From Ilex aquifolium (Eukaryota; Streptophyta; Magnoliopsida; Aquifoliales; Aquifoliaceae), in NCBI GenBank assembly GCA_951799425.1, contig OX637392.1, forward strand, positions 31,952,093 through 32,016,092: a stretch of 64,000 nt of DNA, read 5' to 3'. Each line of letters begins with the position of its first letter. Positions within the stretch are counted from its first letter, which is position 1. Positions 9,675-62,218 of the stretch are shown one piece after another. Below the pieces are notes generated by a model. It did no database searches and was not told where the DNA came from. It saw only the letters and a program-made list of their open reading frames with translations. The position numbers and the translations under genes are program-made.

Positions 9675-11584
9675 TGATGAGAGCAAAATATTGCATATTT
9701 GATGGCCTCATTATATGCATTTTAACTCAACTTTTGCATTTAAGTACTTAGTGTTAGCCAAAGTTGTGAATAATGTTGATATTTTGATGTTGCATGTTTT
9801 GATAGCTTAAATGATGGATTTTAGGACTTTGCAACTATGTTGGATGTGAGGTGAAGTGGTGGACTCATGAAATGAGGATTGAGAGTCTTGGAAGGTAAAG
9901 AAATCAAGAAAAATGAATTTTGGATGAAGACCTTCCGGAAGGTTTATGAATACCTTCCGGAAGGTTTAGCCCACTGGAATTTCGTAATTTTGACACTGTA
10001 CCACTGTTTTTCTAAATTTTGACCATGATCTACTTAGAATTTGAAACAGTGCAAAACATGAAAGTTGTAGATATGGATGTCTTTTTTATTGTGTCAAAAT
10101 TTCAGCTCAATCCAACGGTTGGATCAAAATATATTATTTTTCTACCAAAACTGGTCCAGAGCTGTCACCAGATTCCAGTAGGTTAAACCTTCCGGAAGGT
10201 TGTCATCGTTCTTCCGGAAGGTCTTGCCCAGAATGCGAAAAACAGCCTGCAACTCAACTTTGCGGCTTGGGGGTCCCACCTAATCTTCTCCCACTTGCTC
10301 CCCAACATTATCTTACACAAGCACATGCTTCCCTTACACATTTGGAGGACTTTGGAGGCTTTGCATTGAAGAAGGCATGGGAGGGAAGTGGGCTACCATG
10401 GGGGTGTTGTCCTAGCTTGTCCAAGGCAATCAACTCAGCCCCTCTTTGGTGTAAGACCTGCACACACCTAGGGGGACCCTCCATGGACGAAATTCAAGGC
10501 TCTCACTCTCCATTATACATTCAACATTCAACACACAAGAAAAAGGGTTGGCTACCTAAGCTTAGGATTAGATATAGAAAGCTCCAAGGGGGAAGATGAT
10601 GAATAGTGCTCAAAGTGACGTTTTTGCATTTTTCTTCCACTCTTTCACTTGTAGTTTAATGTAAGAACCTTGTAAGCTTCATTTATTGTCTTTAATCTCA
10701 TTTATTTCAAGTACTTTGCAAGTTTCAATACACCATTTCCATTTCACCATTGTTGCTCAAGTTCTTCATTTTTCAAGCTTAAAATGGGTATTGAATATTT
10801 TTCTCCTTAGTTTAAGATTTCTTGCTTTGAGTTAAGTTTCATGCTTCATGCTTCATGTCTTCATTATATCCATTTACATTATTATGCTTGTCTTTCATTT
10901 TACCATGAGTAGTTAGATTTAAGTTGGTAAATCCAAGGGAAAATTTCTCTTGGGGATTCCATTTTAACTCATTCTCCTCCCTCCCTTAAGAGTCCAATGG
11001 TTCGGTTTGACGGGGTTGAGAGTGGATGAATTGGTGCCTTTGATATTCCGTAGACTTGTCGCGGTTTATTCTTAGATCATCACCAACCTCATCCCTAGCT
11101 TCCCCCGAATCAATTGTTCATTCATGCTCTATCGGAGTTAAGGAGGGATTGGAGTTGAAATGGTAGTCCTATTGGAGTGACTTCCTTTGGATTAGCCAAC
11201 ATTGTTTTCTTGCATTTTCCATACATAAACACAACCACAAAACACAAATACAAGATTTTACACTTTCTTTTCACTTTTGCAAAATCACTTTCACAAAACT
11301 CCCTTTCCTTCCCTGAGGAGACGACCTTGGAATATTTTCCAAGTAAAACACACGACCACAAAAGACTCATTTCGATTGGGGAGCGCTTTTGTTCACACAC
11401 CCGCATTTCATTCCATCTATTTTGTTCATCAAATTTCCATTCACATCCATTTTGTTGTTGTTTCCTAATCTTTTGCATCATCTGGAGGGAGAGTGACACT
11501 CCTCCATCACTATAAGCCACATACACACATTGAGGGTGAGGGTGATGTTACCAGATTAGGAACGACGTAATTTTCAATCAATCA
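9675..11584 (+). repeat. 5' LTR of non-autonomous Athila-type element
   Basis: Bounded by TGATGAGAGC and CAATCAATCA, followed by a primer-binding site. It contains four copies of a CTTCCGGAAG palindrome and the word AAAACATGAAAGTTGTAG (from 10053), which also occurs in an unrelated LTR at 59478. Confidence 0.93.
9931..10220. repeat. TTCCGGAA palindrome cluster in 5' LTR
   Basis: CCTTCCGGAAGG at 9931-9942, 9953-9964 and 10188-10199, and CTTCCGGAAG at 10211-10220. They come as two pairs, each pair followed by GCCCACTGGAA or GCCCAGAATG words. The 3' LTR repeats them at 15417-15706. Confidence 0.95.
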
Positions 11585-11587
11585 TTT

Positions 11588-11605
11588 TGGCGCCGTTGCC
11601 GGGGA
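11588..11605 (+). other. Primer-binding site of non-autonomous element
   Basis: TGGCGCCGTTGCCGGGGA lies three bases after the 5' LTR. This is the primer site found in Athila-type elements. Confidence 0.9.
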
Positions 11606-11715
11606 AGGTTAAGCGTTGAGTTCAAGAGGTGATTTTGGGACGGCATAAGGTAAGTCTTGTGATTTTCATCACGGGCCAAGGTATGTCGTCTAACTTGTAA
11701 ATATTTTATTTTAGT

Positions 11716-12702
11716 TTGTGTTTTGTAATGTTTTCTAATTATTATGGAAATGTATATAATGCCCAAAATTTGCAAAATGTGTGTAAGATTTGTGATGAGT
11801 ATGGGCATATTACTAGTGAGTGCCCAAGAATGGCCTCTTATTTTGAAAACGTTTGCAAGATTTGTGGTGAATATGGACACATCACTAGTGAGTGCCCTAT
11901 AAATGCCCCTTATTTTGGAAACGTTTGCGAAATTTGTGGTGAAAATGGACACCTCACTAGTGAATGCCCAATTAATTATCCGGTTCAACACTTTGAATGC
12001 GAAGGTTCAAATTCAAATTTGGCCTCCGAAATTTTTTACCCTAACCATTATGTTACACCGAGTTGTTCGAGTTATGGTTGGGAGAATGAACCTCATGATT
12101 GGTCATCCGATCTCACACCACCAAATGAATCTCCCCATTGTCCAACATATGAGGACTCAACCGAACAAGTATTGGAAAATACTTTTTATGAGTTTATGCA
12201 ATCCCAAATGGAATGCAGTGCCCAAATGCAATGCATTGCCCAACAACTTAATGCATTGACTAATGCTACAATTGTTATGCATGAAGTACAACACCTTGAG
12301 CATAGTCAATGTATTGAGGATGACCCCCCCAAGGAAATGCATATGGATGTTGAATCTCCCACCACTATAGATTGTGAAACATTTGATGAAGTTATTATCT
12401 TGCATAAGGCTAATGAGCCCAAGGACATTTTGCCATCTATGAGTGGTGTTGAGATTCACATTTCTCAACTTGGGGAGGGCATTGCAATGGAGTTAAGTGT
12501 TGAGACTCTTAAAGAAAAATTGAATACTCCACCTTTTGTATTGCATAAACTTGCCTATATCTTGGTTTGGTGGAGATTTTTGACTCATTTTCCTTTATAT
12601 TGTTGGATAGATGGTTTAAGAAGGGCATTTATACAACAAAAAAATTTTAAAATCAAAAAAATTAATGGGCGTAAGGTCATATCCGAATTGAAGCCGGATT
12701 GA
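11716..12702 (+). CDS. Triple zinc-knuckle protein of the non-autonomous LTR element
   Basis: The only long frame of the element, 328 residues. Near the N-terminus are three tandem CCHC knuckles of the form C-x2-C-x4-H-x4-C: CKICDEYGHITSEC (about residues 23-36), CKICGEYGHITSEC (about 50-63) and CEICGENGHLTSEC (about 76-89), spaced 26-27 residues apart. Such knuckles bind nucleic acid in retroelement Gag, where they help package RNA. I recognise no capsid domain and no enzyme domain. The middle is rich in Q, M, E and H (about 140-230), and the C-terminus is basic. The start is the first ATG after the leader, about 110 bp past the primer site. One possible role is an RNA-binding product that directs the transcript into particles made by a partner element. 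It could also be a relic of a longer gag. The frame is open from end to end, which fits the young LTRs. Confidence 0.7.
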   Translation: MCFVMFSNYYGNVYNAQNLQNVCKICDEYGHITSECPRMASYFENVCKICGEYGHITSECPINAPYFGNVCEICGENGHLTSECPINYPVQHFECEGSNSNLASEIFYPNHYVTPSCSSYGWENEPHDWSSDLTPPNESPHCPTYEDSTEQVLENTFYEFMQSQMECSAQMQCIAQQLNALTNATIVMHEVQHLEHSQCIEDDPPKEMHMDVESPTTIDCETFDEVIILHKANEPKDILPSMSGVEIHISQLGEGIAMELSVETLKEKLNTPPFVLHKLAYILVWWRFLTHFPLYCWIDGLRRAFIQQKNFKIKKINGRKVISELKPD

Positions 12703-12904
12703 CAAGAGCCCTCTTTGTTTGTTTTAATGTACATAGTAAGTAGCCTTCTTTGTTTTTATTTTCGTGTATATATGTGTGATTCAAGTTTTTGATAGGTTAT
12801 ATGTCTTAGAAAGGGTGTTAAAATGTTTTGGAGTTGAGGAGATTTGGTTTGGTTGAGAATTTTTTTTTTAAAGCAATGGAATGGTTTTGCAGCAAAAGGC
12901 AATA
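12703..12904 (+). other. Noncoding start of the element's 3' region
   Basis: AT-rich sequence after the zinc-knuckle frame, with no domain seen. The palindrome array begins at its right edge. Confidence 0.5.
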
Positions 12905-13206
12905 CCTTCCGGAAGGTTTCATCTACCTTCCGGAAGGTTTTATTCCAGTGAGCAACACCTTCCGGAAGGTTTCATTGACCTTCCAGAAGGTTTTGCCTAC
13001 TGGAATTTTTTGCCTCAAGCGATAAGCAAAACCTTCCGGAAGGTTTCATAGACCTTCCGGAAGATTTTTCCTACTGGAGTGAAACCTTCCGGAAGGTTTT
13101 GTCTACTGGAATAAACCTACCTTCTGGAAGGTTTTACCTGTTGACCTCTTTATTCAACTGTTCCTACTCAAACTTTCCGGAAGGTTTCTATCGACCTTCC
13201 GGAAGG
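12905..13206. repeat. Internal array of ten CCTTCCGGAAGG palindromes
   Basis: Ten units (about seven perfect or nearly so at twelve bases, the rest one-base variants such as CCTTCCAGAAGG and CCTTCTGGAAGG). They alternate between a short TTTCAT linker and a longer TTTTGCCTACTGGAA or TTTGTCTACTGGAA linker. The same paired layout occurs in this element's LTRs. Several variants change C or G within the central CCGG, as expected from decay of methylated cytosines. Confidence 0.93.
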
Positions 13207-13339
13207 TTTTGCCCAAAATGCTAAAAAAAGAGGGTTTTATGTTAAAATTTTTGAAAAACCCTTTACATTTCCCCCAAACCTCAAGCTCCCAAGCTTTCTC
13301 CTCTCCTTCTGCTCTATTCAACTCTTCGACATACCTCCT

Positions 13340-13377
13340 CTAAAAAAAAAAAAAATTTAAAAAAAAAAAAAAAAAAA
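13340..13377. repeat. Poly-A tracts
   Basis: Two runs of A (13 and about 18) separated by TTT, within the noncoding interior of the element. Confidence 0.9.
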
Positions 13378-13439
13378 GAGAAAAATGGTGTATCTTATTT
13401 TTCCACTTTCTTTCATTTTTCTCATTGCATGATTCTTTG

Positions 13440-13482
13440 TGCATTGAGGACAATGCATAGTTCAAGTTGGGGGGTGAGGTGC
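13440..13482 (+). other. Second, internal polypurine-tract-like site
   Basis: GCATTGAGGACAATGCA followed by AGTTCAAGTTGGGGGGTGA. The GTTGGGGGGTG core equals the polypurine tract beside the 3' LTR (15150-15160) but lies 1.7 kb upstream of it. GCATTGAGGACAATGC is also a small hairpin. It may be a central polypurine tract or the trace of an ancestral LTR junction. Confidence 0.55.
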
Positions 13483-15150
13483 ACCATTTACATGTTCCGC
13501 CACTTTTTGTATAGAATAAGTTGGAAATGTGAAAATTTTAAAAAAAAATTTGGAACATTTTTGTGAAAAATATTCAATATTGAACTATATTCCTCTATCT
13601 TAGTTGTTATGGGATTTGTGAATTGCTTGATCTTCATTTTGAACTTTGAATACATGAGCACATTATAGAAGTTTATCCTATTGCTAAGAGTATCACATAC
13701 ATGTTTGCTTTTGAACTCAATCATAAGTGCACCATGAACTTGTAATTTTGGCAATTTACGGATTGAGTTCACATTTTAGTGCTTGACATGAATAGTGGAG
13801 ATGAGTAAGAACCCATGTGAGCTTTAGTGTCAATTCTTGTTGGAGGGAACTTACATGTACTCAAGGAACAATTTTTCAAATTTCACATTTGTTCAATAAT
13901 CTCATTATGCTTGTTTTGGTTAGGTGCATTTGTGTAGTTGATTGACTTTGTCTTGAAATGCAATGTGCTCTCCCATGCCTATCTAGAAATGATCTTAGGC
14001 CATCTTTGATTTGCTTTGAGCCTTAGCCTTTTTCTTGTGAAAAATTTATCCCTAGTGCCATGGTTGAGCCTAATTGAATTCGTTTCTATGCCATACATTT
14101 GACCAAGCCAATGAAAATGATAAATATCTACCTTACCTTGGTTGTTCCTAGAGCTAAGTATGAGTAATCATAAAAGAGAAGGAAGTATGGTGTGGAAACT
14201 CAAACAAAAAGGATGAATGATGTTGGAACTCAAAGAGTTCAAACGGAAAAGAATGATAAAATACAAGAGAAGGAGAAAAATGGGTGAAAGAAGAAAAAAA
14301 GAAAAGAAACAAAGAATTGGTGATGGTGTGAGAATCAAAATCCCATGAAAAGGGAAGTGTTTGTCCAAGATTTAAAGTCTCTCACTCGGAACAACCCTCT
14401 TTGTTATCCTATACCCTTCATTTCACCTACCTAGATACCACCCCAAGGCCCCATTATAACCCTTGAAAGTCCTAAATGATCTAGAGAAGCATGGGGAAGG
14501 CACACTTTTAAAGAAAAAGTAAATTTAATTTTGCTATCTAATGCCCTAGCATTATTTTCATGAGATTATGCCAAGGTTGTTTCATTTGTATACATGTGCT
14601 TCATTTTTGGATTATATGTGAGCACTTTGTTTTGAGCACAAGATTCTATCTCACATATACACATGGAGAGCATGCTAGGATAATCATGAGTGATTCATTG
14701 TTGAGAGAACACCCTTGGTGAGTTTTTGCATCGAAGCTTAATTTGGATAGCCATGTGAATGTGAATTACGTTGAGTAAATGCTTAAATTACATGTTCATT
14801 CCACACACACACGAGTTTGAAAATGAATGTGTAGGTGAATACTCTAGAATAGCATTTAAAGCTATAATGTGTTTCATTTGTTTTTAGTTCGGGTGTTTTG
14901 AACAAAGCTATTTTTGAAATCCCATTGCTAGTTAAGATAGGGGAATATGCTTTAAATATTGGATATTAGCAAAAGAAGTTTGTAGGTACCTTCACTGGAA
15001 ACCTTCACGAGACAAAACTCGTCCACTAGGGATCACCTAGGGGTTTAAAGGCTTATTGCATATGCTAAATGCAATTTCGGAATTAGTATAGGTTTATTTT
15101 TTGTTTGCTTGCTTTTACATTTTGTTTGCTAGAGACTAGCAAAGCTTAAG
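13483..15150 (+). other. Noncoding 3' region of the element
   Basis: About 1.7 kb of AT-rich sequence with no frame or domain I can support. It ends in AAGCTTAAG just before the polypurine tract. Confidence 0.6.
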
Positions 15151-15160
15151 TTGGGGGGTG
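15151..15160 (+). other. Polypurine tract
   Basis: TTGGGGGGTG lies directly against the 3' LTR start at 15161 and would prime plus-strand DNA synthesis. Confidence 0.88.
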
Positions 15161-17070
15161 TGATGAGAGCAAAATATTGCATATTTGATGGCCTCATTAT
15201 ATGCATTTTAACTCAACTTTTGCATTTAAGTACTTAGTGTTAGCCAAAGTTGTGAATAATGTTGATATTTTGATGTTGCATGTTTTGATAGCTTAAATGA
15301 TGGATTTTAGGACTTTGCAACTATGTTGGATGTGAGGTGAAGTGGTGGACTCATGAAATGAGGATTGAGAGACTTGGAAGGTAAATAAATCAAGAAAAAT
15401 GCATTTTGGATGAAGACCTTCCGGAAGGTTTATGAATACCTTCCGGAAGGTTTAGCCCACTGGAATTTCGTAATTTTGACACTGTACCACTGTTTTTCTA
15501 AATTTTGACCATGATCTACTTAGAATTTGAAACAGTGCAAAACATGAAAGTTGTAGATATGGATGTCTTTTTTATTGTGTCAAAATTTCAGCTCAATCCA
15601 ACGGTTGGATCAAAATATATTATTTTTCTACCAAAACTGGTCCAGAGCTGTCACCAGATTCCAGTAGGTTAAACCTTCCGGAAGGTTGTCATCGTTCTTC
15701 CGGAAGGTCTTGCCCAGAATGCGAAAAACAGCCTGCAACTCAACTTTGCGGCTTGGGGGTCCCACCTAATCTTCTCCCACTTGCTCCCCAACATTATCTT
15801 ACACAAGCACATGCTTCCCTTACACATTTGGAGGACTTTGGAGGCTTTGCATTGAAGAAGGCATGGGAGGGAAGTGGGCTACCATGGGGGTGTTGTCCTA
15901 GCTTGTCCAAGGCAATCAACTCAGCCCCTCTTTGGTGTAAGACCTGCACACACCTAGGGGGACCCTCCATGGACGAAATTCAAGGCTCTCACTCTCCATT
16001 ATACATTCAACATTCAACACACAAGAAAAAGGGTTGGCTACCTAAGCTTAGGATTAGATATAGAAAGCTCCAAGGGGGAAGATGATGAATAGTGCTCAAA
16101 GTGACGTTTTTGCATTTTTCTTCCACTCTTTCACTTGTAGTTTAATGTAAGAACCTTGTAAGCTTCATTTATTGTCTTTAATCTCATTTATTTCAAGTAC
16201 TTTGCAAGTTTCAATACACCATTTCCATTTCACCATTGTTGCTCAAGTTCTTCATTTTTCAAGCTTAAAATGGGTATTGAATATTTTTCTCCTTAGTTTA
16301 AGATTTCTTGCTTTGAGTTAAGTTTCATGCTTCATGCTTCATGTCTTCATTATATCCATTTACATTATTATGCTTGTCTTTCATTTTACCATGAGTAGTT
16401 AGATTTAAGTTGGTAAATCCAAGGGAAAATTTCTCTTGGGGATTCCATTTTAACTCATTCTCCTCCCTCCCTTAAGAGTCCAATGGTTCGGTTTGACGGG
16501 GTTGAGAGTGGATGAATTGGTGCCTTTGATATTCCGTAGACTTGTCGCGGTTTATTCTTAGATCATCACCAACCTCATCCCTAGCTTCCCCTGAATCAAT
16601 TGTTCATTCATGCTCTATCGGAGTTAAGGAGGGATTGGAGTTGAAATGGTAGTCCTATTGGAGTGACTTCCTTTGGATTAGCCAACATTGTTTTCTTGCA
16701 TTTTCCATACATAAACACAACCACAAAACACAAATACAAGATTTTACACTTTCTTTTCACTTTTGCAAAATCACTTTCACAAAACTCCCTTTCCTTCCCT
16801 GAGGAGACGACCTTGGAATATTTTCCAAGTAAAACACACGACCACAAAAGACTCATTTCGATTGGGGAGCGCTTTTGTTCACACACCCGCATTTCATTCC
16901 ATCTATTTTGTTCATCACATTTCCATTCACATCCATTTTGTTGTTGTTTCCTAATCTTTTGCATCATCTGGAGGGAGAGTGACACTCCCCCATCACTATA
17001 AGCCACATACACACATTGAGGGTGAGGGTGATGTTACGAGATTAGGAACGACGTAATTTTCAATCAATCA
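15161..17070 (+). repeat. 3' LTR of non-autonomous Athila-type element
   Basis: 1910 bp, the same length as the 5' LTR and differing from it at about seven bases by eye. It contains the same four palindromes (15417-15706). It is followed by the target copy CCGAG. Confidence 0.93.
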
Positions 17071-17840: not shown

Positions 17841-17858
17841 CCACCGTCCGGACGGTGG
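17841..17858. promoter_or_regulatory. 18-bp perfect palindrome upstream of LTR TATA box
   Basis: CCACCGTCCGGACGGTGG is its own reverse complement over 18 bases. It lies about 107 bp upstream of the LTR's TATA box. It is a single copy here, unlike the arrays in the other LTRs. Confidence 0.85.
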
Positions 17859-19778: not shown

Positions 19779-20122
19779 ACAATGATAGCTCAATTCTTTG
19801 TTTTCAAAATACACAAAAGGTTTAAAAAAAACTTTTCTTTGAAGAACACCTAGGAGCCATATTCGGATCTAATACCGATTTCATTTTTACACTAATTCTC
19901 CTTAGTCTATTAAACCAAGGGATAATCTCAGGTCTCTAGGTCAATACCTTGTCCTAAGCAAGAAGGTGTATACCTAGTGATTTTGATGTAGCTTTGATGC
20001 ATGATCTCCTCCCTTCAAGTAATACTTTCAAATCTTCATCGTTGTAGCATCAATACCATGAAATAAGTTGAGATTTACAATGAACTCCAAAAAATTAGTC
20101 AATTACAAAACATGATCTAACA
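19779..20122 (-). repeat. Ty1/copia-like LTR, right piece
   Basis: The 5' end of the LTR whose 3' part is 4532-5712. On the minus strand it starts TGTTAGATCATG (20122), matching TGCTAGATCATG of the copy at 22825. With the insertions left out the LTR is about 1.5 kb. Confidence 0.7.
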
Positions 20123-21117
20123 TATATAAATCTCAACCTATTCCATGGTCATGTTGCTACAATGATGAAGATCCAAAAGCATCAATGGAAGGAAGTAGAT
20201 CATGCTTCAAGTGACATCAAACGAATTCTCTGTATGCACCTTACTTGTGTCTCAAGGGTGTAAAATATAATTGGTTTCCCAAGCGTAGAAATGTATCATG
20301 CTTGTAACTCGATCAATTATCGAGGTCGTCTGCTCAAGGAAAATGAGTGGTTCAAAAAGGTAATAAGCAAAGAAAAATAAAAACTCTGAATGTTTGGAAA
20401 ATTGGTTGTAGAATTCACCAACTAAGAAATAACAATCAAATAAAAAGATCGGTTAATCGGTAAAGTTCATCTCCTTGTAAACAGCTATTTTGACCTAATT
20501 TGGTAACTCACTTGAAATCGTACTCAAACTCACTCTAGCGGAAAATATTCAATTAACATCCCAAATGAAAACAACAAATGTGTATTTAAGTTGATTGATC
20601 TAATTTTGAAAGAATTACATTCACTTTGATTGCAGTGATTCTAAGAATTACATGTGCCAGACATAACTGTCGATGGGTAAGCAAGAAGATGTACATATTG
20701 AATGTGTTTTCAACTTTAATCATTCAAACAACCAAATACTTAATATTTCAAAAAATCCTAATTGAGTCAAAATTCCCATTCATGGATGAGACTCCCTCAT
20801 CCAGTCAAACCGAAGTATGACTACTCACTCATAATGAAATTAAAAATTGAAGCAATTGAAGAAAGCATGATTGTAATTGAAAGCAGATAAAACTTGAAAT
20901 TGAAATTGCGCATAAACGAAAATACCTTGAATTAAATTGCAATGAATGTAAATCGTTCACAATAGAGAATTGAAAGTAATCACCTTGAAAGAATTTAAAG
21001 ACTAAATGTAGAAGAACTCTTGAAAAGAGAAAACCCAAGTTCTAACCCTAGGAGAAGAAAGGAAGAACGGTGAATTGAACGATGGAATTCGGTTCCTCCT
21101 CTCTCTGGGTAGGCTTG

Positions 21118-21127
21118 GGTATTTATA
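21118..21127 (-). promoter_or_regulatory. TATA box of Athila-like LTR
   Basis: TATAAATACC on the minus strand. The CTACCGGTAG array begins about 110 bp upstream. Confidence 0.65.
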
Positions 21128-21234
21128 GTAGAACATCCGCTGATTTTCCTCTATTTTAATCCACCAATCACGACCTTTATAAATCTCAGTAGATCAGCTT
21201 TCCAAAATAGTCCTCACAGCAGAAATACACTAAC

Positions 21235-21470
21235 CTACCGGTAGAAAACACAAAATAACCTACTGGTATAACTGTTATCTGTTTCAAATGAACTGGTAGC
21301 TTTTCACAGCTATTGGTAGAATAACCTTCTATTTAAGACCTACCGGTAGAACAGTATCAACCTACCGGTAGCGAGGTCTCTGTTTTACTTCTACCAGTAG
21401 GAATGAACTTTTACTAATAGAATGTAATTCTGATTTCTGTTGAACCAATAGAAAACCTATTGGTAACACT
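21235..21470. repeat. CTACCGGTAG palindrome array
   Basis: Perfect CTACCGGTAG at 21235-21244, 21340-21349 and 21362-21371, with several one- or two-base variants (CTACCAGTAG at 21391-21400, CTACTGGTA, CCTATTGGTA) through about 21470. It lies upstream of the TATA box at 21118-21127. Confidence 0.92.
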
Positions 21471-22824
21471 GGCCTTTTCATCAATTATTCTTGCAATTCC
21501 CTTGGCTTGACTCTTGGATTTCCTAACTCAAACTCCAAGTCCTCCATAGCATTAAAATGTGCGCAAAACCTTGTTTTTACACTAGTTCACCCGCAAACAC
21601 GAATATCCTTCATAAAATACAAAACTAAATTAAAACAAAGGAAATAGGTAACTAACATAGCTAAGATGAATGATATGAGACCTTAAAATGCAATATTATG
21701 AACTTAGAGACTAAATAATCATTGGTTTAATTTATTAGACTTAAGATGATTAATGTTAAAATGGAATCAGTATTGACCCTTGTATGGCTCCTAGGTGATT
21801 TCCAAAGAAGACTTTTTTTCTAAACCTTCTTGTGATTTGAAAATATAGTTTGAGCAATTATCAGACCTCTATTTAGCAGCACCCTTTAGTGTTCAAGAGG
21901 ACTAGTTTTTTGCTTGATTTTAGGCTAAAATCAATAGGGGACCACCCTATGTTTGTTAGCCTTCGCTAGAGTGGTCTCTAAAGACTTAGAGAGGATCACC
22001 CTATGGGTCACTCTTAGGCTGCTTCAACAATTCCTACTCTACCTTTTTAGTTTGATTTCAAATTTCATTCCAGTAACTACCACCCTCTGATTGCTCGAGT
22101 AGTCATTCATGAATTTTTGTTTTCTTGGACCCCAAAACTAACCCTATTCCCAGCCCATAAATATAGGACGCCTTCCCAACCTAGGGTAAGTCTTTTAGAG
22201 AGACTTTTCTCTATGTAGCACCTTGAGAGCTTGAGCCACAACCCTAAATCCCTAAATTCAAAGGCTATCATCTTGTGATTCCTCTCCAATCTCACACCTT
22301 AGAGAAGAATATCTTGGTTGGTTGAAACCAAACCAATCGGCAAGTGTGCATATTGAGGATCTTGGCGGAGAAGATCACTCGAGGCTTAGACGATCCATTG
22401 CGGTGGAGAATTCAAGTGAAATTATCGATAACATCGGTGGGTGTATCTAATGGAGAGGTTTATCGAAGGAAATAAGCTTCTAACCATGATATTTTTTGAG
22501 GTATAAGTCTCGAGTACTTGTAAACTGAATTTAGAATAGTGGATTAGTCTTTGGTGAACCCTACCTAGAGAGATTCCCGATGGTTTAGTCCCAAGAAGGT
22601 TTTTTGCATCAACAAATTGTTTTTGTTCTTTGTTGTTTTTACATATCCACTTGTAATTTGATACACACATGAGCACCATATGTTTGATAAATTGATTGAT
22701 TGGATATCCATAGTTACTTGCTTGGGTTGGGATCACCGTGAGATATTGAGTGTTAATCAAAAAATTTATAAAATCAATGCATCATTCTTCATGGGTTTTA
22801 TGGGTTGTAGTGGTGGAAAAGGGG

Positions 22825-23759
22825 TGCTAGATCATGTATTTGTACTTGGCTAATTTCATGAAGTCAATGTAAATCTTAACCAAATTCCATGGTCATCAAG
22901 CTTCAAAGATCAAATCTGTAAGCGACAAAGGAAACGAAATAGATCAAGCTAAAATGCTACATCAAGACTACTCTGATGCACCTTCAAGTTTAGGACAGAG
23001 GTAATGACCTTAGAGACCTTGAGAGAATTAACCCCAAAAGGATGATATTATGGGGTTCTAGCAGCGACAAATCAGATCCCTTGGTTTAATTTTATACTTA
23101 GGATGATTAAGGTGAACAAAATGAAATTTGGAATATCCAAAAAATGAATCGTAGGTTTTTTTTTGGTTGAAAATGTTTTCTAAACCTTAAATGTGTTTTG
23201 AAAAAATAGTTTGAGTTATTTACTGGACCCTATTTGAGAAACACCATTTAGTGCTCAATAGATCAATTTTTTGATTAATTTCTAGCTTAAAAATCAGTAG
23301 GAATCGCTCTCTGTTTGCAAGCCTTCACTAAAATGATTTCTGAAATACTTAGGGAGAAAAAATTGGAAAAACCAATGGAGACCAATCTACGGCCGCTCTA
23401 CAACCACTCTACCACCACTCGAGCGATTTGGAGATCGCTCGAGCGGTCTGCCACCTGGAAGTCAAGAATGATTTTTTACTCCAACAACCACCGCCCTATG
23501 ACGGCCCTCTCACTACTCAAGCAGTCGACGCGAACCTGTGTTTTCTTGGTCCCTAAGACAAACCTTATTTTGTGTCCTATATATATGGGGCTATGCCTTA
23601 AACCTAGGGTAAGCCACTATGATTTAGAATAGACCAAAAATCCTTCTAGATTTCCTTAAGAACAACCTTAGATCCTTAAGACCAAAGGTCAACCATCTTG
23701 ATTCTTCCATTCAACCTCACATATTGAAGAAGAATATCTTGCTTGGTGTTCACCAAAAC
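22825..23759 (+). repeat. Third copia-like LTR, left piece
   Basis: Starts TGCTAGATCATG. It contains CTCGAG at 23418-23423 and the perfect palindrome CGCTCGAGCG at 23436-23445. A TATA-like TATATATATGG follows at 23579-23588. It is broken at 23759 by a solo Tekay LTR and resumes at 26194. Confidence 0.72.
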
Positions 23760-39204: not shown

Positions 39205-39209
39205 ACTTC

Positions 39210-39983: not shown

Positions 39984-40077
39984 CACGTGGCTTGAGGATT
40001 TTTGACGGTTTGCAGCAATCATGTCTTTCCTCGATTCCCGCGCATGTCTCAGCCCACGTCCCTCAGGCTTTAAATAC
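39984..40077 (+). promoter_or_regulatory. Putative promoter of the first antisense gene
   Basis: CACGTG (G-box core) at 39984-39989 and TTTAAATAC at 40069-40077 lie just inside the element, pointing away from the 3' LTR and about 480 bp ahead of the likely ATG at 40553. Sequence-only inference. Confidence 0.4.
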
Positions 40078-46248: not shown

Positions 46249-46318
46249 GGGAGCCATTGAAGGATGAATAAAAGACTTGCTCATTCTTATTTAAAAGTAG
46301 CTCTATTACAGATAACAC

Positions 46319-47677: not shown

Positions 47678-47686
47678 CGCATCTGC

Positions 47687-48781: not shown

Positions 48782-48799
48782 TCTGTACTCCTTTAGGAT

Positions 48800-50557
48800 T
48801 CAGAACGAATCTGCTAAGTGCTCGATGTGGAGCTCTGCTTTTAGTGACTTTACTAGCATATCATCTATGTAAACTTCCATGGATGCTCCTATCTGTTTTT
48901 GGAACATCCTATTTACCAGCCGCTGGTAAGTGGCTCCAGCATTCTTCAACCCGAAGGGCATGACCTGGTAACAGTATGTTCCTTGTTCTGTTACGAAGGA
49001 GGTCTTCTCCTGATCGCCTGGATCCATCCTGATCTGGTTGTATCCTGAGAAGGCATCCATGAAGCTAAGGAGCTCATGCCCGGCTGTGGCGTCCACTATT
49101 AAGTCAATACAAGGTAAAGGAAAGCTATCCTTGGGGCATGCTCGGTTGAGATCAGTAAAGTCAATGCACAATCGCCATTTGCCATTAGTTTTCTTGACGA
49201 GAACCACATTCGTCAACCAAGTAGGGTAGTCAACTTCCCTGATGGCCTTGGCATGGAGGAGCTTGCTGACCTCCTCATTAATCGTCTTTTGCCTTTCTGG
49301 GGCAAAACTTCTCCTCTTTTGTTTGACGGGTTTGCAAGCTGGATTTACACTCAGCTTATGGGTGATAACCGAAGGGTCAATTCTCTCCATGTCTTCCTGC
49401 TTCCACGCAAACACTCCCATATTCTCCTTTAGGAACTGGATAAGGAGACCTTTGAGCTCTGCGTTTAGTCTGGAACCCACATAAACGAGGTGCTCTGGCT
49501 TCTCATCAAGCTGAACTGGTTCCAGCTCTTCCGATGGCATTGGTCTTGTCTCCATTTCGTCTCTCATGTCGAGCTCATCCAGTTGGATGTTCTCAACCTC
49601 CTTCCTTTTCACAGAAGCCATGTAGCATTCCCTTGCCACCCGCTGGTCTCCTCGGACTACTCCGATTCCATTGTCCGTAGGAAATTTCACGACTAAATGG
49701 TAGGCAGATGGGATTGCCTTCATAGAATTAAGGGATGGCCTCCCAAGCAAGATGTTGTATGCAGAGGGTGCATTGACCACTAGGAACTTTACGGTGGTAG
49801 TGGCTTGGCAAGGTGGGTCCCCTAGGGTGAGCACGAGCTGGATTGAGCCTAGGGGAAGCACCCTTTCCCCGGAGAATCCCAGCAAGTGAGTGCTTACTGG
49901 CTCGAGTCTCTCCCTTCCTATATCCATCTTATCAAACGCAGGTGCGAAAATGATATCTGCCGAGCTCCCATTATCGATTAGAACACGATGAATAGTTCTA
50001 TTAGCCACCACTGCTCGCACCACCAATGGGTCATCATACGGGTACTGGCATCCCTCCAAATCAGCGTCCGAAAAAGTGATAGCTGTATCTATGCGTGGTG
50101 CTTTGGATACAGCGTACACTTCGAGAGCTTCTTCGGCTCTGATCCGGCGGAGGTGCGCTTTCCTGGCCGAGCTAGATTCTCCGCCTCCTGCGAACCCTCC
50201 TGATATTACTCTGATCTCCCCTAGAGGCTGCTGGTGCGGTGCCGGTGCCTGCTGTCGGGGTGGTGGAGGGGGAAGAGCTCGGTTCTGGTTGTCATTGGCT
50301 ACAAAACGACGTAACTGACCTCGTTGGATCAAAAACTCGATCTCCTTCTTTAGTTGAATGCAGTCATCAGTGTGGTGACCATGGTCTCTATGGTAATCGC
50401 AGTACTTGGTGGGGTCTCTTTTGGCTGGATCTGCCTTCATTCGAGGTGGCCATCTTAAGAACTTCTCGTTTTGGACCTCGTACAGAACTTGCGACACAGC
50501 GGCGGTGAGTGGGGTGAATCGCTGGGGTCCATATCTGGGCTGTAGTTCAGGCTGCAT
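48800..50557 (-). pseudogene. Tat Gag end, protease and reverse transcriptase region
   Basis: A zinc-knuckle-like CDYHRDHGHHTDDC lies near the start. Next is a retropepsin site in VLIDNGSSADIIF. The RT follows, with NGKWRLCIDFTDLNRACPKD, VMPFGLKNAGATYQRLVNRM and the catalytic YIDDMLVKS. The frame is long (about 585 residues) and overlaps the gag frame. Confidence 0.92.
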
Positions 50558-51795
50558 GGGGCCCAGGCGGTCTCTGACATTTCCTCTTCTCTTTGGCGAG
50601 TGGTCCCTATCTTTTCTGGGGGACCTCTCTCGCCCTTTTTCCTTCCTGGGACTCCTGTCTCTTCTCTTCTCTTCTCTTCTTTTTCCTTCTCCTTTCGTGA
50701 GGATGTTCCTCCTACTTTAGAAAGGAGTGCCTCTTCGCCATTTATATACTTTTCTGCCTTGGCTAACACCTCAACCATGCTTGCCTGAGGGTTCTTTGAT
50801 ATAGAAAACATCAAGTCCTTTGACTGCACTCCCAGTCCTGCAATGAAAGCAGTTATGGCGAATTTTTCATCTGGGACGTCTACCTTCAATGTCTCTGAGT
50901 TAAACCTTTGGACATAAGACCTCAGGTTCTCTTGGGGACCCTGCTTCACGTTCAGCAGATGGTAGCTTGATTTTCTGTATATCCGGGCTCCTATAAAGTG
51001 AGATACGAAAGCAATGGAGAGCTCTTTAAAGGATGAGATCGAGGCAGGTGGGAGCCTGTGAAACCAGGCTAAGGCTGAGCCTTTCAATGTGATGGCAAAA
51101 GCTCTGCAGCGTACGGGATCCTGGTATCCATGTAGCTCCATCTGGTTCTTGTAAGTGTTGAGATGATCTACGAGATCTTTAGACCCATCAAAGACCTCTA
51201 TTTGAGGCATCCTGAACTTCGGTGGGAGAGGGAAGTGTAGCACCCCCGTGGTGAATGGGGACTCGGTTTGCTGAACCAAGACATCCATTGTAACCGGAGC
51301 TTTACTCCTTACAGCCTCCTTCATGTAGCTGAGCTCTTGTTGGATGTCGTTGAAGCGTTGCTCCCAGCGCTGCTCTTTCCTGTCCGGCGGATAAGGGAAA
51401 GAATCATCCCTATCGCCCCCGTCGTTCTGACTTTGCATCTCGTCGTTATGGCCATTCCTAGGGGGCACATAAGGAGCATGCCCCCTGGTCTGGCTGCTTT
51501 CTCCTCCTTCGTCGACCTCTCTGAGGGGGTCCCAGTGTCGCCGTTCCCTGTAAGGGGGGTTATTCTGGCCTTCTTGGGCCGGTCGTGCCTCCTGTGGGCG
51601 TTGTACGAGCTTTGATAGCTCTGCATTTTCCTTTAGTAATCGTTGGTTGACGAGGCGAAGGGCCTCCAACTCGTTATTAATGGGGGAATTCGTCTCCTGG
51701 ATGTTCCCTGGTTGTCTGTCGTTGGTGGCTTCCTGTTGATCTTGCATTCGTGGTAGGTTTGTTTGACTTCTGCTCATATTTCGAGTTGTTACCAT
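50455..51795 (-). CDS. Tat gag region
   Basis: A 446-residue minus-strand frame starting about 60 bp inside the 5' LTR (MVTTRNMSRSQTNLPRMQDQ). Its middle is the Retrotrans_gag domain: VDHLNTYKNQMELHG, then FAITLKGSALAWFHRLPPAS, then LLNVKQGPQENLRSYVQRFN. The N-terminal part is charged and coiled-coil-like, the C-terminal part basic. Gag forms the particle. It overlaps the downstream protease/RT frame by about 100 bp. Confidence 0.88.
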   Translation of the reverse strand: MVTTRNMSRSQTNLPRMQDQQEATNDRQPGNIQETNSPINNELEALRLVNQRLLKENAELSKLVQRPQEARPAQEGQNNPPYRERRHWDPLREVDEGGESSQTRGHAPYVPPRNGHNDEMQSQNDGGDRDDSFPYPPDRKEQRWEQRFNDIQQELSYMKEAVRSKAPVTMDVLVQQTESPFTTGVLHFPLPPKFRMPQIEVFDGSKDLVDHLNTYKNQMELHGYQDPVRCRAFAITLKGSALAWFHRLPPASISSFKELSIAFVSHFIGARIYRKSSYHLLNVKQGPQENLRSYVQRFNSETLKVDVPDEKFAITAFIAGLGVQSKDLMFSISKNPQASMVEVLAKAEKYINGEEALLSKVGGTSSRKEKEKEEKRREETGVPGRKKGERGPPEKIGTTRQREEEMSETAWAPCSLNYSPDMDPSDSPHSPPLCRKFCTRSKTRSS

Positions 51796-51840
51796 CAGTC
51801 ACTGAGGAATCAGTTTATTTGTAACAGGAACAGTCGTTCC

Positions 51841-51857
51841 CACAGACGGCGCCCAAC
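51841..51857 (-). other. Primer-binding site of Tat element
   Basis: TTGGGCGCCGTCTGTG on minus, directly after the 5' LTR. I do not assign the tRNA. Confidence 0.8.
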
Positions 51858-52551
51858 TGATGGCGTCAAACTGTGCGTATGAGCTATGGGATTGGATTGT
51901 GTGGTATGTACGATCTGCGTAGGGCTGGGTATGATATCTGAACTACAAGGCTCGTGAATTGGTGGATGAACGCTCTAATCAATCGATGTGTAGTGTGTGA
52001 AATGCAGTAAAAGTATAGTGGTTCACCGGCTAATGAGCTCGGCTAATCCACTCTCTAATGGAGGCTCTTGCTCCCTTCTCTTTATTGATGAATTGAACGT
52101 CCTACAGTAGAATACTCGGGGTCCCCTTTAATGGAGGTTGTCCCTCCCTTATTATCGCCTCATGCTTACCTCTAATTCGGAATTATATCCTACATTGAAG
52201 GGATTGCTCCCTATCTTCATCTCTAATTCCGGAGTTACCCAAACTCCTTATGGCTGGTTTCAAACGGAGAGATCCTTGCCTTCTTCCACGGGATTTTTCT
52301 TAGTTTTAGGAGGGGATCATGGTTGAATACGGGTTTCATGCCTTGGATTGGTTCTACTTCCTTTGTAAGGGTATCCGTTGTCATCTTGCTGGCCCCTTGG
52401 CATCTCTCATCTCGAATCTTTAGCAGGGAGTGTCAATGCTGGCTGGGCGAGCTCAGACCATGGCTAGGGGGGGAGCTCAGCTTATTTTACCTGAGCTCCC
52501 GAGCTGAGCTCACTAACTGAGCACGTGTCAGTTTTATTCTTGGCATCATCA
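51858..52551 (-). repeat. Tat element 5' LTR
   Basis: 694 bp, three differences from the 3' LTR by eye, followed by target copy ACTTC (52552-52556). Confidence 0.95.
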
Positions 52552-53726: not shown

Positions 53727-56225
53727 CTTATTGTAACGCCCCAAATACCACCCTGGACGGCAATACATTCTACAACCATTTATAATGTGAGAGCACAAAT
53801 AAAAAATTCATAAATAACCGGGGGTCCTTAATTTTCACGAAATTTGGGCAGAGCCTCCTTTGTTCTGGGAGCTCTACCCAAAACACAACATGTGCATTTA
53901 TAATACATCGACCACACCGGGTCCATTTATCCCTCAAATCTCTACAACGTTGCCCCAAAAGATTTTCCATTCACCACATGTAATATTCACAATAACATTC
54001 TCCAAAATAATAAGACAAGTCATGGCCACAATATCAAAAGAATATGTCCAACAATGGCCTTTACATTTCCAAATGAATTGAACTAAGATAACGCAGCGGA
54101 ATACAAAATACTAGACTTTACATGACTTCCAAAATAATTTATCAAGTCTAGTACAAAAATAAATGACATCTCTATATGTCCCACTCGGGATCCACGTATC
54201 CCTCTAAGGAAGCTTCTCCTTGGCCCGGCTCATGAGCATCGAGCTCCTCCTCTAGAGTAAAATCTGAACATATTCAACAGTAGGGGGTGAGCACGAAGCT
54301 CTGTAGAAAAATCCTCCCAATCCCAAACAAGGTTTAGAAAAGTATATAAAACGGTCGGTCTCATTTTACAAATAACATATATAGCATTTCAAGTAAAACA
54401 TGACATTTTAAGTAGATCTCCAGTTTAAGCTATAATCATGATCTAGTGAAAAGTTAATGTAAATTGCATAACATTATACCATTTATGAAGGGCGTCTTCC
54501 GATGCATTGTCCCATACCAATGCACCGGCCAAGACAATCCAACCATCATTCTCTATATATATATTTTGGTTCATCCCCGTACCATGTATGTTGATTGCTT
54601 CTCATGAATCTACCCAACGATTATACCTAGTCCACCTATGTACATCATAATCACAAGCACTATAGGAAAGGGCGTCTACCATCCCAATGGCAGTGACGAG
54701 TCCCTTCCTAGGAAAAGTATACAATCCCTTGTTCGAACTCCAGTGAACGATAGTGGTCGCATTACCAAATGACAAACCACTACAAGTGTTAGGAAACCAT
54801 CCCACCCCTCACTGGGATAGACTAACCTCTAACACTCTACGGCATCTCTCGATGGCAATCCAAGTCCCTCACAACAACCATACAATGAGGAAACCAAAAT
54901 ATTCTCCATTCATAAACAATTTCCAATATATACAAAAACCACAATTCCTCATTTATAATTCAAGAGTCACAAGTGTACCATTCTCAATATACTACAATAC
55001 TAAGGAATTTAAAATATGCAAGAGATCATATCAATAAACCTTCACAACCTTGATATCAAAATTCTAGGGTTTTTCCAAACCAAACATAATTTCTTGGAAT
55101 AATAACAAGGATTAGATTAAAACATGATTTAGTCAACAATAGGCATTTAGAAATCATGAATTCATGTATTTTTCATAACCCAAACATGTATTTAACAAAA
55201 CTAAGATTTTGGGAACTCAAGAACAATGTCTCTTGAACCCAATCATGCATTTTGTTCAAAATCTATGTTTCAATAACAAAGAATCCAAGAACTCATATCT
55301 ATTTATCATATACTCTCAAGAATATTGAAAACATACATATATAATACCATAATCCTCAATGAAAGAGTTTGAGAAGAATCCCCTACCTTGAAATCAAACC
55401 AAAGTCCAAACAAAAGCCCAAACTTTAGAGAATCTCTTTGCCCCTTTTCTTCTTCCCTTTCTCTTCCCCTAGGGTTCTAACAAGTTGGAGGTGAGAGTGG
55501 AGTGAAAGGATGGGAGCAAATGGACTGAAAAATGGTGTTTTAAACATAGCAGCCCCGATTTTTACTGTTCACTGGGCTGCAATTTGAGTTTTTCTCCAAA
55601 ATTACGATTTTGCCACTAAGAACCTCCAATTTGATCCATATGACTACCCTAAGGTTTTTCGACGTTCCGGATTCATTTCTAATGTTATTTTAACCTAAAA
55701 ACATTTATTTTTATGATTTATTTTAAAACTAAAATAAATTTACACTCGAATATTAAAATTACAACCCAAGTGCAGATTTTTGGTCAACTTCGGAGAATAA
55801 ACTGATTTGACTCAGGTATTTCTAGTATGTGTGACCTATATGGTTGGAAAGATATACGAGTTAGGGTTCTAACAAAAATAACGGTGCGCAATTTGGACTT
55901 TCCAACAAAGAGTTATGATCAAATTGGTGAAAGGTAGTCGGCCGGACTGTTTCGACATTGTTTCGTTATCTGGGCATAACTCTCTCATCCGAGCTCCGAT
56001 TGAGATGATTCAAGATGATATGGAACGCTACGAAAGATCTCTACAACTTTCATGTTTTGAGTTTTGAGAGATATTTACTGCATCAAGGTCGAAATCGCAC
56101 TTGAAGTTGCAGCCAGTGCACTGTTCACGTGCACTGTTCACAGCCTATTTCATCCATTTTTACAACAATTATTTACTATATATCTATATGCATATATAAA
56201 ATAAAATGCGGGGTGTTACACTTAT
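53727..56225 (-). mobile_element. Solo LTR, family X, with CTTAT target duplication
   Basis: The LTR (53732-56220, 2489 bp) reads TGTAACGCCCC...GGGGTGTTACA on plus, and CTTAT is repeated at 53727-53731 and 56221-56225. It belongs with 27304-29502: the regions around TGAGCAC(G/T)AAGCTCTGTAG and CACTACAAGTGTTAGGAAACC match. Its first 200 bp on plus also match the Tekay LTR end, with the conserved hairpin at 53846-53879, so the LTR looks like a mosaic. CAGTGCACTG at 56114-56123. Confidence 0.92.
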
Positions 56226-59396: not shown

Positions 59397-59810
59397 GAAC
59401 AGTGCACGTGAACAGTGCACTGGCTGCAACTTCAAGCGCGATTTCGACCTTGATGCAGTCAATATCTCTCAAAACTCAAAACATGAAAGTTGTAGATCTC
59501 TTTCTTAGCATTCCATAGCATCTTGAATCATCTCAATCGGAGCTCGGATGAGATATTTATGCCCAAATAACAAAATGATGTCAAAACAGCCCAATTAGCT
59601 TAAACAGTGCACGTGAACAGTGCACTGGCTGCAACTTCAAGCCCGATTTAGACCTTGATACAGTCAATATCTCTCAAAACTCAAAACATGAAAGTTGTAG
59701 AAATATTTCTTAGCGTTCCATAGCATCTTGAATCATCTCAATCGGAGCTCGGATGAGAGAGTTATGCCCAAATAACGAAGCAATGTCAAAACAGCCAATG
59801 AACAGTGAAA
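59397..59810. repeat. 206-bp tandem duplication in family X LTR
   Basis: AACAGTGCACGTGAACAGTG through ATGCCCAAATAAC occurs twice, starting near 59398 and 59604. The copy at 53732-56220 has it once (inverse, about 55970-56140). Confidence 0.9.
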
Positions 59811-60019
59811 TTCGGGGCAGCTGTGTTTAAAACCCCATTTACATTACATTTCACTCTCAACCCACATCTCTTAGAGCCCTAGGAGAAGATAAAGGGAAAA
59901 ATGGAGAAAGAGAGTCTCTAAAGCTTGGGCTTTGGTTTGAAATTCTTGATTTCAAGGTAGGGGTTTTCTTCCATTCTTGTTCATTGATGTTAGGGTTAAT
60001 TTATATGTATGTTTTGACT

Positions 60020-61450
60020 CTTAATCATATGTATTTGCTATGGGTTACTTGTTTCTTAATATTCTTGCAACATTTATCATGTTTTGAGTAAAGTATTGGT
60101 GGAAGAACCATAAAAACCCTAGTTTTTTAGGAATGGGGATTTCTCTCTCAATATTCACTAAATCTTGGTGTTGAAAACTCTAGAGCTTTGTGTTGAGTAA
60201 TATAATGATATTGATAATGATCTCTTGCATGTTTCTCTTTAAATTGCCCTATTTGAAGATATCACTTGTGAGAATTGGAGATTTTTCTTGGAAATTGCTT
60301 GTAAATAGGAGACTTGTGGAATTGTTGGGTATTTGAGAGAATATTTGGTATTGTATTCTTGTATGGTTGTTTGGACAAACATGAGTGAGAGGTTCATTGT
60401 AAGGATGCTCATTCCTTCTCAAGAGGTTCCTTGTAAGGATGCTTGAGAAACCAAGTCTTGAGGGTGAGAGGTTCGTTGTACGGATGCTCATGCCAAAAGA
60501 GGACAGTATGTGATTTTCTCAAGAGGTTCCTTGTAAGGATGCTTAAGAAACCAAGCCTTGAGGGTGAGAGGTTCCTTGTAAGGATGCTCATGCCGGGGAG
60601 GACAATCTTATATCATGTGTGGGAAATGGATGTTTATTGAAACTTGGTTGTTATTGTTCATTTCTATTACTATTGCTACTTAAACTTGAAATCCGTTGTA
60701 AAATGCCCATGTTTTACTTCAAATATTATATATGCTATTGATTTCCTCTCTTAGTCTTTTTGCAAAGATTACATGCTTGAACAAAGTTAGGGTTGAATAC
60801 CCATGAAATCTCTTTTCTTGTCTTAAAAACCCTAGTATTTGAAAATGATGGATTTTCTTCTTAATGTGTTCTTTGTTATTGATTTCTAAACCATAGTGAT
60901 TTGTGTTGAGTAGTAAAATGACGTGGTTACGATCTCTTGTATTTTCCTAATTGTTTATTGAAATTGCCTCATAATGGATTTGTGGATCTTTGGAAAAATT
61001 ACTTGTAAATTGGGGATTTATGGAATCGTTGGTTATGTGTGATGATTGTTGGTATGATATGTTCTTGTATGGTTGTTGGAATGAACATGGGTGAGAGGTT
61101 CCTTGTAAGGATGCTCATTCATTCTCAAGAGGTTCCCGGTAAGGATGCTTGGAAAACAATACCGTGATGAGTGAGAGGTCCCTTGTAAGGATGCTCCTTC
61201 CTTCTCAGGAGGTTCCTTGTAAGGATGCTTGAGAAACAAAGATAACATGGAAGGGGTGGAGGTTACTGTTAAGTATGCTACCTGCCAAAGAGAACCTTGA
61301 GGAGGTGGAGGTTACCGTTAAGTATGCCGCTGCCCAAAAGACTTGTTGGAAATTGTTTATGGTGAAACCGATTATTATTTTTACGTTGTGCTCGTTTATT
61401 CATTTAATTACTGTTTTTACATAAACCTGAGATCTGTTTGAAATGTCACT
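60020..61450. repeat. About 706-bp tandem duplication with GGTTCCTTGTAAGGATGCT sub-repeats
   Basis: GTTCTTGTATGGTTGT...GTGAGAGGTT occurs near 60385 and 61091. In each half the short unit AGAGGTTCCTTGTAAGGATG repeats several times (60385-60596 and 61091-61345). Related LTRs lack this expansion. Confidence 0.82.
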
Positions 61451-62078
61451 GTTTTATTTCAAATTGTATATCTATGTTATGTTGAAAAAAGGAGACCGCC
61501 CGTTTTCTATACTTTTCTAAACCTTGTTCGAGTTTGGGAGGATTTTCCTATAGAGATTCGTGCTCACCCCCTACATATAAACCTTTTCAGATTTTACCCT
61601 TGAGGAGGCGGCGGGAGTCGAGGAACCCGTGCATTGGGAGGCCCCACCCGAGGGGAATCTAGATCCCGAGGTGGGCATGTAGAGCTATAAGTTTCTTTTG
61701 TACTAGACTAGAGAAATTATTTTGAGATCATGTAAAGTCTAGTATTTTGTTATTCCGCTGCGTTATCATAGTTTAATTCTTTGGAAATGCAAATGTGACG
61801 CCCCATTTTCCGGGGGTCCTATATTAACCGTTGATCATCCATCAACCAGCGGAAGTACCCGTGAATGTCGCTTAACCCAACACCACGTCGTTAGCATCCC
61901 CTTAGCTAGGATCATAACTCACAAATGTAAACTGGATTCAATTATTCATTTGGTTCAACCAAGATCCAACATACCAGGATTTATACTCAATTATAGTCCA
62001 TTTACATCATTGGAGGGAAGGAAAGCATAAACCGAAAATAGGGCAAAGTAGTTTAAAAATCTGAAAATTCTTGAGAGT

Positions 62079-62218
62079 GTACCGGTACTGTGTACCGGTA
62101 CTGTGTACCGGTACAATATCATACCGGTACTGCGTACCGGTACGGTTTGTCTACTGGAAAGTGCGTACCGGTACGGTTTGTCTACTGGAAAGTGCGTACC
62201 GGTACACAGTACTGGTAC
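62079..62218. repeat. GTACCGGTAC palindrome array
   Basis: Six perfect GTACCGGTAC (62079, 62092, 62105, 62134, 62165, 62196) and two variants (62121, 62209) in 140 bp. Two of the gaps contain TTTGTCTACTGGAA (62146-62159 and 62177-62190). Confidence 0.96.

Follow-up and report, generated by a model that had tools for sequence, protein, structure and literature searches.

In Sireviruses, palindromic repeats termed RM boxes lie upstream of the TATA box of the long terminal repeat (LTR), with one palindrome per element and extra internal copies (PMC2829016, as far as its available text goes). A comparison that covered Ty1/copia elements found them to be Sirevirus-specific and absent from other copia elements; they occur in at least eight copies, a CGG-CCG signature is present in 12 of 13, with Tnd-1 as the exception, and the authors were unable to assign one binding factor to them (PMC2829016). 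LTR palindromes of maize Sireviruses are described as small-RNA hotspots (PMC10760457, citing Bousios 2016). Here, we analyzed arrays of perfect short palindromes in a 64,000-nt stretch of Ilex aquifolium DNA (contig OX637392.1 of assembly GCA_951799425.1, positions 31,952,093-32,016,092, forward strand), called the window below; all positions are window coordinates. The window has the appearance of repetitive plant DNA and samples few independent element families. A first-pass annotation had proposed that different LTR families each carry their own palindrome array and had found no named system that fits. The RM boxes turned out to be closely similar, and the proposed arrays in LTRs are largely real, although some of the listed items are not arrays and one array lies outside the LTRs.

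Perfect palindromes of at least 10 bp were counted and compared with 500 dinucleotide shuffles made within local 500-bp blocks. The window contains 125 of them, compared to 76.7 ± 8.9 after shuffling (maximum 103). The excess is mostly CG-centred (34 versus 7.1 ± 2.6, maximum 16) and partly GC-centred (23 versus 12.2 expected, a number reached in 1 of 500 shuffles). AT- and TA-centred palindromes (33 and 35 versus 31 and 26) showed no clear excess, with 195 and 37 of the 500 shuffles, respectively, containing as many. With a cluster defined as at least three identical palindromic 10-mers inside 400 bp, we detected six clusters formed by four palindromes, every one CG-centred; two of the six represent the LTR pair of a single element. 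Shuffled sequences (300 shuffles) yielded a mean of 0.023 clusters, none of them CG-centred. The clusters consist of CTTCCGGAAG (9932-10220, 12906-13205, and 15418-15706), CTACCGGTAG (21235-21371), CGTTCGAACG (28994-29105), and GTACCGGTAC (62079-62205). CG is depleted across the window (observed/expected 0.57), and the corresponding ratios in the arrays, labelled as in Table 1, are 0.62 (A), 0.61 (B), 0.43 (C), 2.01 (D), and 1.27 (X5). Both the excess over shuffled sequence and clustering far beyond chance, as anticipated in the first-pass annotation, were thus observed.

All palindromes listed in that annotation are present, either at the place given or one to two bases off. The end portions of three ranges (21372-21470, 29107-29123, and 62206-62218) contain decayed sites alone. 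A central CpG, ascribed to most of the palindromes, is found in all six clusters but not in CAGTGCACTG, which is GC-centred. Several listed items did not prove to be arrays. CTCGAG occurs 18 times compared to about 16 expected from uniform bases, which is background; CAGTGCACTG is found once in each copy of a duplicated 205-bp unit and once more in a sister at 56114; and the palindrome at 17841, CCACCGTCCGGACGGTGG, is single-copy. Furthermore, the array at 12905-13206 sits between two LTRs and is internal to its element.

Table 1. Palindrome arrays, related loci, and their host LTRs in the window
Feature	Positions	Strand	Description
5' LTR, young Athila-like element	9675-11584	+	seven differences from the 3' LTR in 1911 aligned bases
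Array A	9930-10220		four CTTCCGGAAG sites, arranged as two pairs with 22 bp between centres; ACTGGAA at 14.5 bp from a dyad, twice
Array B, internal to the Athila-like element	12904-13207		ten CTTCCGGAAG sites; ACTGGA[AG] at 14.5 bp from a dyad, four times
3' LTR of the same element	15161-17070		whole element 9675-17070
Array A, 3' LTR copy	15416-15706		copy of 9930-10220
Single 18-bp palindrome (X6)	17841-17858	-	TATAAATA 107 bp downstream, minus strand
Array C	21235-21400	-	CTACCGGTAG (three perfect sites, three variants); minus-strand TATAAATA 108 bp downstream
Locus F, weak two-site	23418-23445	+	CTCGAGCG, CGCTCGAGCG; TATATATA 133 bp downstream
Array D	28993-29123	-	CGTTCGAACG (three sites perfect, two decayed); minus-strand TATAAATA 53 bp downstream
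E56, U3 segment, sister of E59	55944-56164	-	one CAGTGCACTG
E59	59398-59796	+	205-bp unit duplicated, one CAGTGCACTG each; CAAAACATGAAAGTTGTAGAT common with the LTR of array A
X5, LTR related to family X	61794-64000	-	3' end at 61794; extends beyond the window
Array X5	62079-62218	-	GTACCGGTAC (eight sites, six of them perfect); CTACTGGAA at 14.5 bp from a dyad, twice

The shuffles leave tandem duplication uncontrolled. Therefore, we stacked the 14 sites of arrays A and B on their dyads. Seven positions on each side are 93-100% conserved, while the outer positions up to 20 are 36-79% conserved, except for +9, which is identical in 14 of 14 sites; the units were oriented by their right-flank match, a procedure that biases the right flank upward. 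Allowing two mismatches, A and B together contain 14 sites, X5 eight, C six, and D five, of which 11, six, three, and three, respectively, are perfect. Two of the ten sites in array B are CpG-decayed and one is another variant. The 33 sites show 13 departures from the core, and 10 of the 13 are CpG transitions (a raw count, taken without a chance expectation), which points to past methylation. The two LTRs carrying array A differ at seven positions, none of them in a palindrome, but seven differences are too few for this absence to say much. Centre-to-centre spacings are 21-22 and 32 bp in A and B, 13, 16, and 31 bp in X5, 17, 18, and 67 bp in D, and 22-50 bp in C.

Between A/B, C, and X5, the palindromes differ symmetrically. 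Those of A and B deviate from that of C at ±3, C deviates from X5 at ±5, and B and X5 are unlike each other at ±3 and ±5, in both arms. C and X5 have the core TACCGGTA in common. Locus F fails the cluster test. The first-pass annotation had suggested that the architecture is selected while the sequence is free to change. This is in line with cores that stay palindromic, flanks that mostly diverge, and loci that use different palindromes, but it does not extend to every listed palindrome, as not all of them form arrays.

A second motif accompanies the palindromes. Of the 24 copies of ACTGGA[AG] in the window, 11 are no more than 40 bp away from the dyad of a site in arrays A-D or X5. Ten of these 11 lie at exactly 14.5 bp from the dyad (eight of nine after dropping the second LTR copy). 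The companions at 14.5 bp point away from the dyad, namely two in A (plus the same two in the second LTR), four in B, and two in X5; both orientations are represented in B, and the X5 pair lies in tandem copies. The companion adjoins CTTCCGGAAG in A and B and GTACCGGTAC in X5, that is, different palindromes in two elements. All six copies of CTACTGGAA in the window fall in arrays. At locus F, a similar CACCTGGAA was recognized by eye one base nearer to the centre. A fixed-distance ACTGGA[AG] partner beside two different palindromes is new here: neither the companion nor palindrome arrays of gypsy elements were found described in the literature searched, which covered few subscription journals.

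The flanks were also compared in register, that is, relative to the dyad with the cores held fixed, for nine pairs of loci and with 2000 flank shuffles. The flanks of B and X5 share TTTGTCTACTGGAA, and 0 of 2000 shuffles were as good; for A and X5, 11 of 2000 were. The unit common to A/B and X5 possibly reflects either common descent followed by symmetric change of the palindrome or a shared function. In a separate comparison of the array regions with masked palindromes, three of 27 pairs passed 200 shuffles (A-E, B-X5, and E-X5). A-E, owing to a 21-nt stretch, and E-X5, owing to a purine-rich stretch before the array, were each matched by 0 of 5000 shuffles. The 21-nt stretch CAAAACATGAAAGTTGTAGAT is located at 10052-10072 and 59477-59497, among the array sites of otherwise unlike elements.

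The array segment behaves differently from the rest of the LTRs. The LTRs of D and E59 are 70% identical over 107 bp near their start, those of D and E56 are 70.5% identical over 1.2 kb downstream, and further short matching pieces exist between the D and E LTRs, none of them in the array-bearing segment. X5 and its relative X1 share four matching pieces, with no match at the array, and the 127-bp segment preceding array X5 is 71.7% identical to that preceding the E59 unit. Because this segment is dissimilar between LTRs that otherwise match, the array has the look of a U3 cassette that can be swapped. Sister copies without palindromes, which the first-pass annotation would have taken as evidence against its proposal, do exist in part. 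Four relatives of the LTR at 62 kb, X1-X4, lack the array at the aligned place, where their sole palindromic 10-mers are GTGTGCACAC (at 26206) and TCATTAATGA (at 58482); the array of X5 itself is present.

Candidate promoter boxes lie near three loci, on one strand. The window contains 16 TATAAATA boxes, and three of them lie 53, 107, and 108 bp downstream of D, the palindrome at 17841, and C, respectively; a simple calculation for ten loci and distances of up to 150 bp predicts about 0.4 such boxes. Array A is located 256-546 bp into its LTR. For D, an LTR start at approximately 29504 was deduced by eye. Two further sequences were recognized by eye alone, GTATAAATCC at a distance of about 92 bp from array X5 and TTTAAAAC in the vicinity of E59.

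Taken together, the arrays are, in our assessment, rather probably enhancer modules for homodimeric DNA-binding factors and a partner. They would act as upstream enhancers of LTR promoters, with each CG-centred palindrome as the putative binding site of a homodimeric protein. In two elements, ACTGGA[AG] at 14.5 bp from the dyad would be read by a second protein or by a second part of the same complex. The module would multiply via local duplication and, as the mismatch of the array segments suggests, may be exchanged among LTR families. A shift in recognition, in which both arms and the copies of the array change together, would give a family its own palindrome. Imperfect sites would mostly originate from deamination of methylated CpG after silencing; the transitions are visible in the sites, and the methylation is presumed. 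Self-complementary sites lacking a spacer, their varied spacing, and the lone palindrome at 17841 suit binding of a homodimer to double-stranded DNA. Worded in the first-pass annotation as a dimeric host factor or an RNA hairpin, the choice now leans toward a dimeric DNA-binding factor as the simplest reading, with the hairpin still a competitor. To our knowledge, no host factor fits all four cores.

Several observations weigh against the enhancer reading. In addition to the orientation bias of the stack mentioned above, the companion of array D lies at -19.5 instead, where the second D site has ACTGGC at the same distance of 19.5 in mirror orientation, and ACTGGA[AG] at 14.5 bp is absent at C, E, and 17841. 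Seven of the nine in-register pairs were not clearly above shuffled flanks (B-C, 57 of 2000; the others, at least 315 of 2000). The similarity of B and X5 is weak when the register is ignored, as 38 of 5000 shuffles were as good for what is one of 27 pairs tested. The companions are partly tandem copies, and the A/B-X5 unit may be shared by descent; the spacing is therefore not an independent proof of function. In contrast to A and D, array X5 is found close to the 3' end of its LTR, at a distance of 285-425 bp. A looser scan for TATA[AT]A[AGT][AGT] within 450 bp gave no box on either side of A (both LTRs) and X5, and for B, E59, and E56 a box solely opposite the presumed promoter side.

Candidate host factors and a geometric rule were considered and rejected. 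TTCCGGAA fits the heat-shock element, which we take to be TTCnnGAA, but the cores of C, D, and X5 do not, and a third 5-bp unit was not seen by eye. Sites of LOB-domain proteins, presumably TCCGGA, fit A/B and 17841 only, and the literature searched yielded nothing on them. The GTAC core that we assume for SPL proteins fits X5 only. The MAIN/MAIL1 DOWN motif CATGCAGTTT, given for the MORC1 promoter in the available part of PMC9899485, has no copy in the window. Spacings of 21-22 and 32 bp in A and B suggest whole helical turns, but those of X5, D, and C do not follow.

Among the alternatives, the most serious is that the arrays work as hairpins of RNA or single-stranded DNA, serving, for instance, as small-RNA sources or structural signals, a role that has been proposed for the palindromes of maize Sireviruses; we regard this as unlikely. 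For pieces of A, B, D, and X5, the predicted RNA folds are far more stable than those of shuffled versions (z -4.7 to -11.4, 200 shuffles per piece), in the predicted fold of one B piece two companions pair together around a palindrome pair, and small RNAs are reported in excess at maize Sirevirus palindrome clusters (PMC10760457, which cites Bousios 2016 for this). For C, however, the stability is modest (z -2.4, equalled in 4 of 200 shuffles), the fold of the lone palindrome at 17841 is ordinary (z -0.9, 38 of 200), and a hairpin requires two complementary arms rather than spacerless arms that are each self-complementary. Across eight array pieces, z ranges from -0.9 to -11.4; strong folds follow from the repetition of any palindrome, and hairpins therefore persist as a rival to the enhancer modules.

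By analogy with VANC proteins and VANDAL transposons, a retrotransposon protein might bind the family-specific array of its own element and counteract silencing. Sunflower Tekay is said to encode an extra protein resembling double-stranded RNA-binding proteins (PMC12844716, in the text available), and in the Athila-like element tandem CCHC knuckles are encoded by a stop-free frame of 333 aa that precedes array B. We nevertheless judge this to be quite improbable. VANC21 motifs stand in one orientation, and the term "palindrom" is absent from the accessible text of PMC5735166. The four forms of the VANC21 motif occur once altogether in the window. Pfam analysis of 20 of the 101 stop-free segments of at least 85 aa revealed solely retroelement domains, Transposase_28, a protein phosphatase 2C piece, and zinc knuckles. 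Zinc knuckles are usual in Gag. Moreover, the TACCGGTA core is common to C and X5.

Neutral growth, in which a chance palindrome is multiplied by tandem duplication or slippage free of selection, appears very improbable to us. Plain tandem copies do exist among the units (31 bp in X5, 18 bp in D), and only four of 42 ten-mers that are repeated at least three times in 400 bp with diverged flanks are palindromic; the remainder consist in part of registers of these arrays and in part of microsatellites or other repeats. On the other hand, the cores of A and B are conserved against diverged flanks, and all six clusters, with their four palindromes, are CG-centred despite the depletion of CG. That the arrays are landing sites for other elements can hardly be the case: plant LTR retrotransposons prefer palindromic insertion sites, but this preference is called slight and spans few base pairs at the target (PMC6911290, available text), and no array interrupted by an insertion was noticed, no dedicated test having been made.

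The host elements are of several kinds. We presume the element at 9675-17070 to be of the Athila type; its LTRs show seven differences in 1911 aligned bases, and a target-site duplication CCGAG and the primer-binding site tggcgccgttgccgggga were identified by eye. Its 333-aa frame spans 11701-12699, before array B, and the CCHC zinc knuckles lie in a tandem 72-bp repeat. Upstream of the element, at 8554-9393, a 419-bp unit is duplicated in tandem (98%) and contains a decayed reverse sequence resembling a primer-binding site as well as TACTGGAA. Array C lies inside a 2-kb stretch (19796-21848) flanked by 66-bp inverted repeats (77%); this stretch may represent a DNA transposon and not an LTR. 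The end of the X5 LTR adjoins the E59 LTR at 61789-61794 and looks, by eye, like an insertion into it. The X1 LTR follows an integrase frame with a Tf2-1-like SH3 domain, and we take the broken frame before this LTR to be chromodomain-like by resemblance.

Many older LTR fragments are scattered over the window, together with a near-complete Tat-like element at 39209-52551 whose LTRs are 99.6% alike over 695 bp. Its gag, reverse transcriptase, and integrase domains lie on minus-strand frames split by stops, and two plus-strand Transposase_28 frames (39968-41425 and 44157-45326) run opposite to gag-pol; a 54-bp tandem repeat (45789-46243) separates the two halves. The names Tat, Athila, and chromovirus are our presumptive assignments. 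A piece of a protein phosphatase 2C gene is located at 34513-34782. Related plant sequence was also sought in viral contigs with three patterns, which gave 6, 26, and 1 loci; the 16 of these 33 that were inspected were non-plant by eye, and none of them lengthened the plant sequence. Repeated GTACCGGTAC at 4222-4406 of contig L026 and 3475-3506 of contig L031 was judged by eye to be unrelated to the plant arrays.

A broader proposal, which we put forward tentatively and hold to be somewhat doubtful, is that LTR retrotransposons of separate lineages have in common an exchangeable promoter cassette based on a two-part code. In it, a CG-centred palindrome specific to the family would be combined with an invariable ACTGGA[AG] at a fixed distance, and the palindrome would change symmetrically along with the recognizing dimer, in an arms-race-like turnover of specificity among lineages. 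If this were general, palindromic promoter boxes reported as Sirevirus-specific among copia elements would be a wider device of plant retrotransposons. Their grammar of palindrome, spacing, and companion would be definable and open to binding and reporter assays, and it would provide a handle on how elements continue to be transcribed despite turnover of their regulatory DNA.

How do the arrays relate to systems already described? Like the VANDAL motifs recognized by VANC, they are short family-specific motifs arrayed in transposons, but the VANDAL motifs are directional and have a known element protein, whereas those described here are palindromic (PMC5735166, available part). They resemble the CpG islands of Del/Tekay LTRs in being a variable CpG-rich LTR stretch, and the same source cites CpG-rich low-complexity regions directly upstream of TATA in monocot LTRs; there is, however, no island in the eudicot Del group, and "palindrom" does not occur in the available text (PMC4029996). 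The U3 subfamilies of Tnt1 and Retrolyc1 likewise combine one family with unlike U3 regions and modular turnover, but palindrome arrays are not part of that description, the term being absent from the accessible text (PMC1838419); box I of Tnt1 has been called symmetric (PMC2829016). With the maize Sirevirus palindromes (PMC10760457, in part), the arrays share clustering in the regulatory part of the LTR and strong predicted folding.

The closest counterpart are the RM boxes, as presented in the available part of PMC2829016. Common to both are palindromes with dyad symmetry in many copies, one palindrome per element, CG-containing cores, and extra internal copies (array B). The placement agrees at some loci: clusters begin 200-400 bp inside the LTR in A and, by its deduced start, in D, and a TATA box follows at a short distance in C, D, and 17841, but A and X5 have no such box and X5 lies near the 3' end of its LTR. 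A predicted CpG island is a further trait of the RM boxes; the CpG ratios of the present arrays range from 0.43 (C) to 2.01 (D). The companion ACTGGA[AG] is not mentioned there for RM boxes. In contrast to the RM boxes, the order CGG-CCG is missing in CTTCCGGAAG, CTACCGGTAG, GTACCGGTAC, and CGTTCGAACG, as judged by eye against Table 3 of PMC2829016, and the cores are CCGG or TCGA and spacerless. Where the hosts are known, they are not Sireviruses, that of A being Athila-like and that of X5 chromovirus-like by our presumptive labels. As both the core signature and the Sirevirus host are lacking, we conclude that the arrays are a variant of the RM boxes rather than members of this group.

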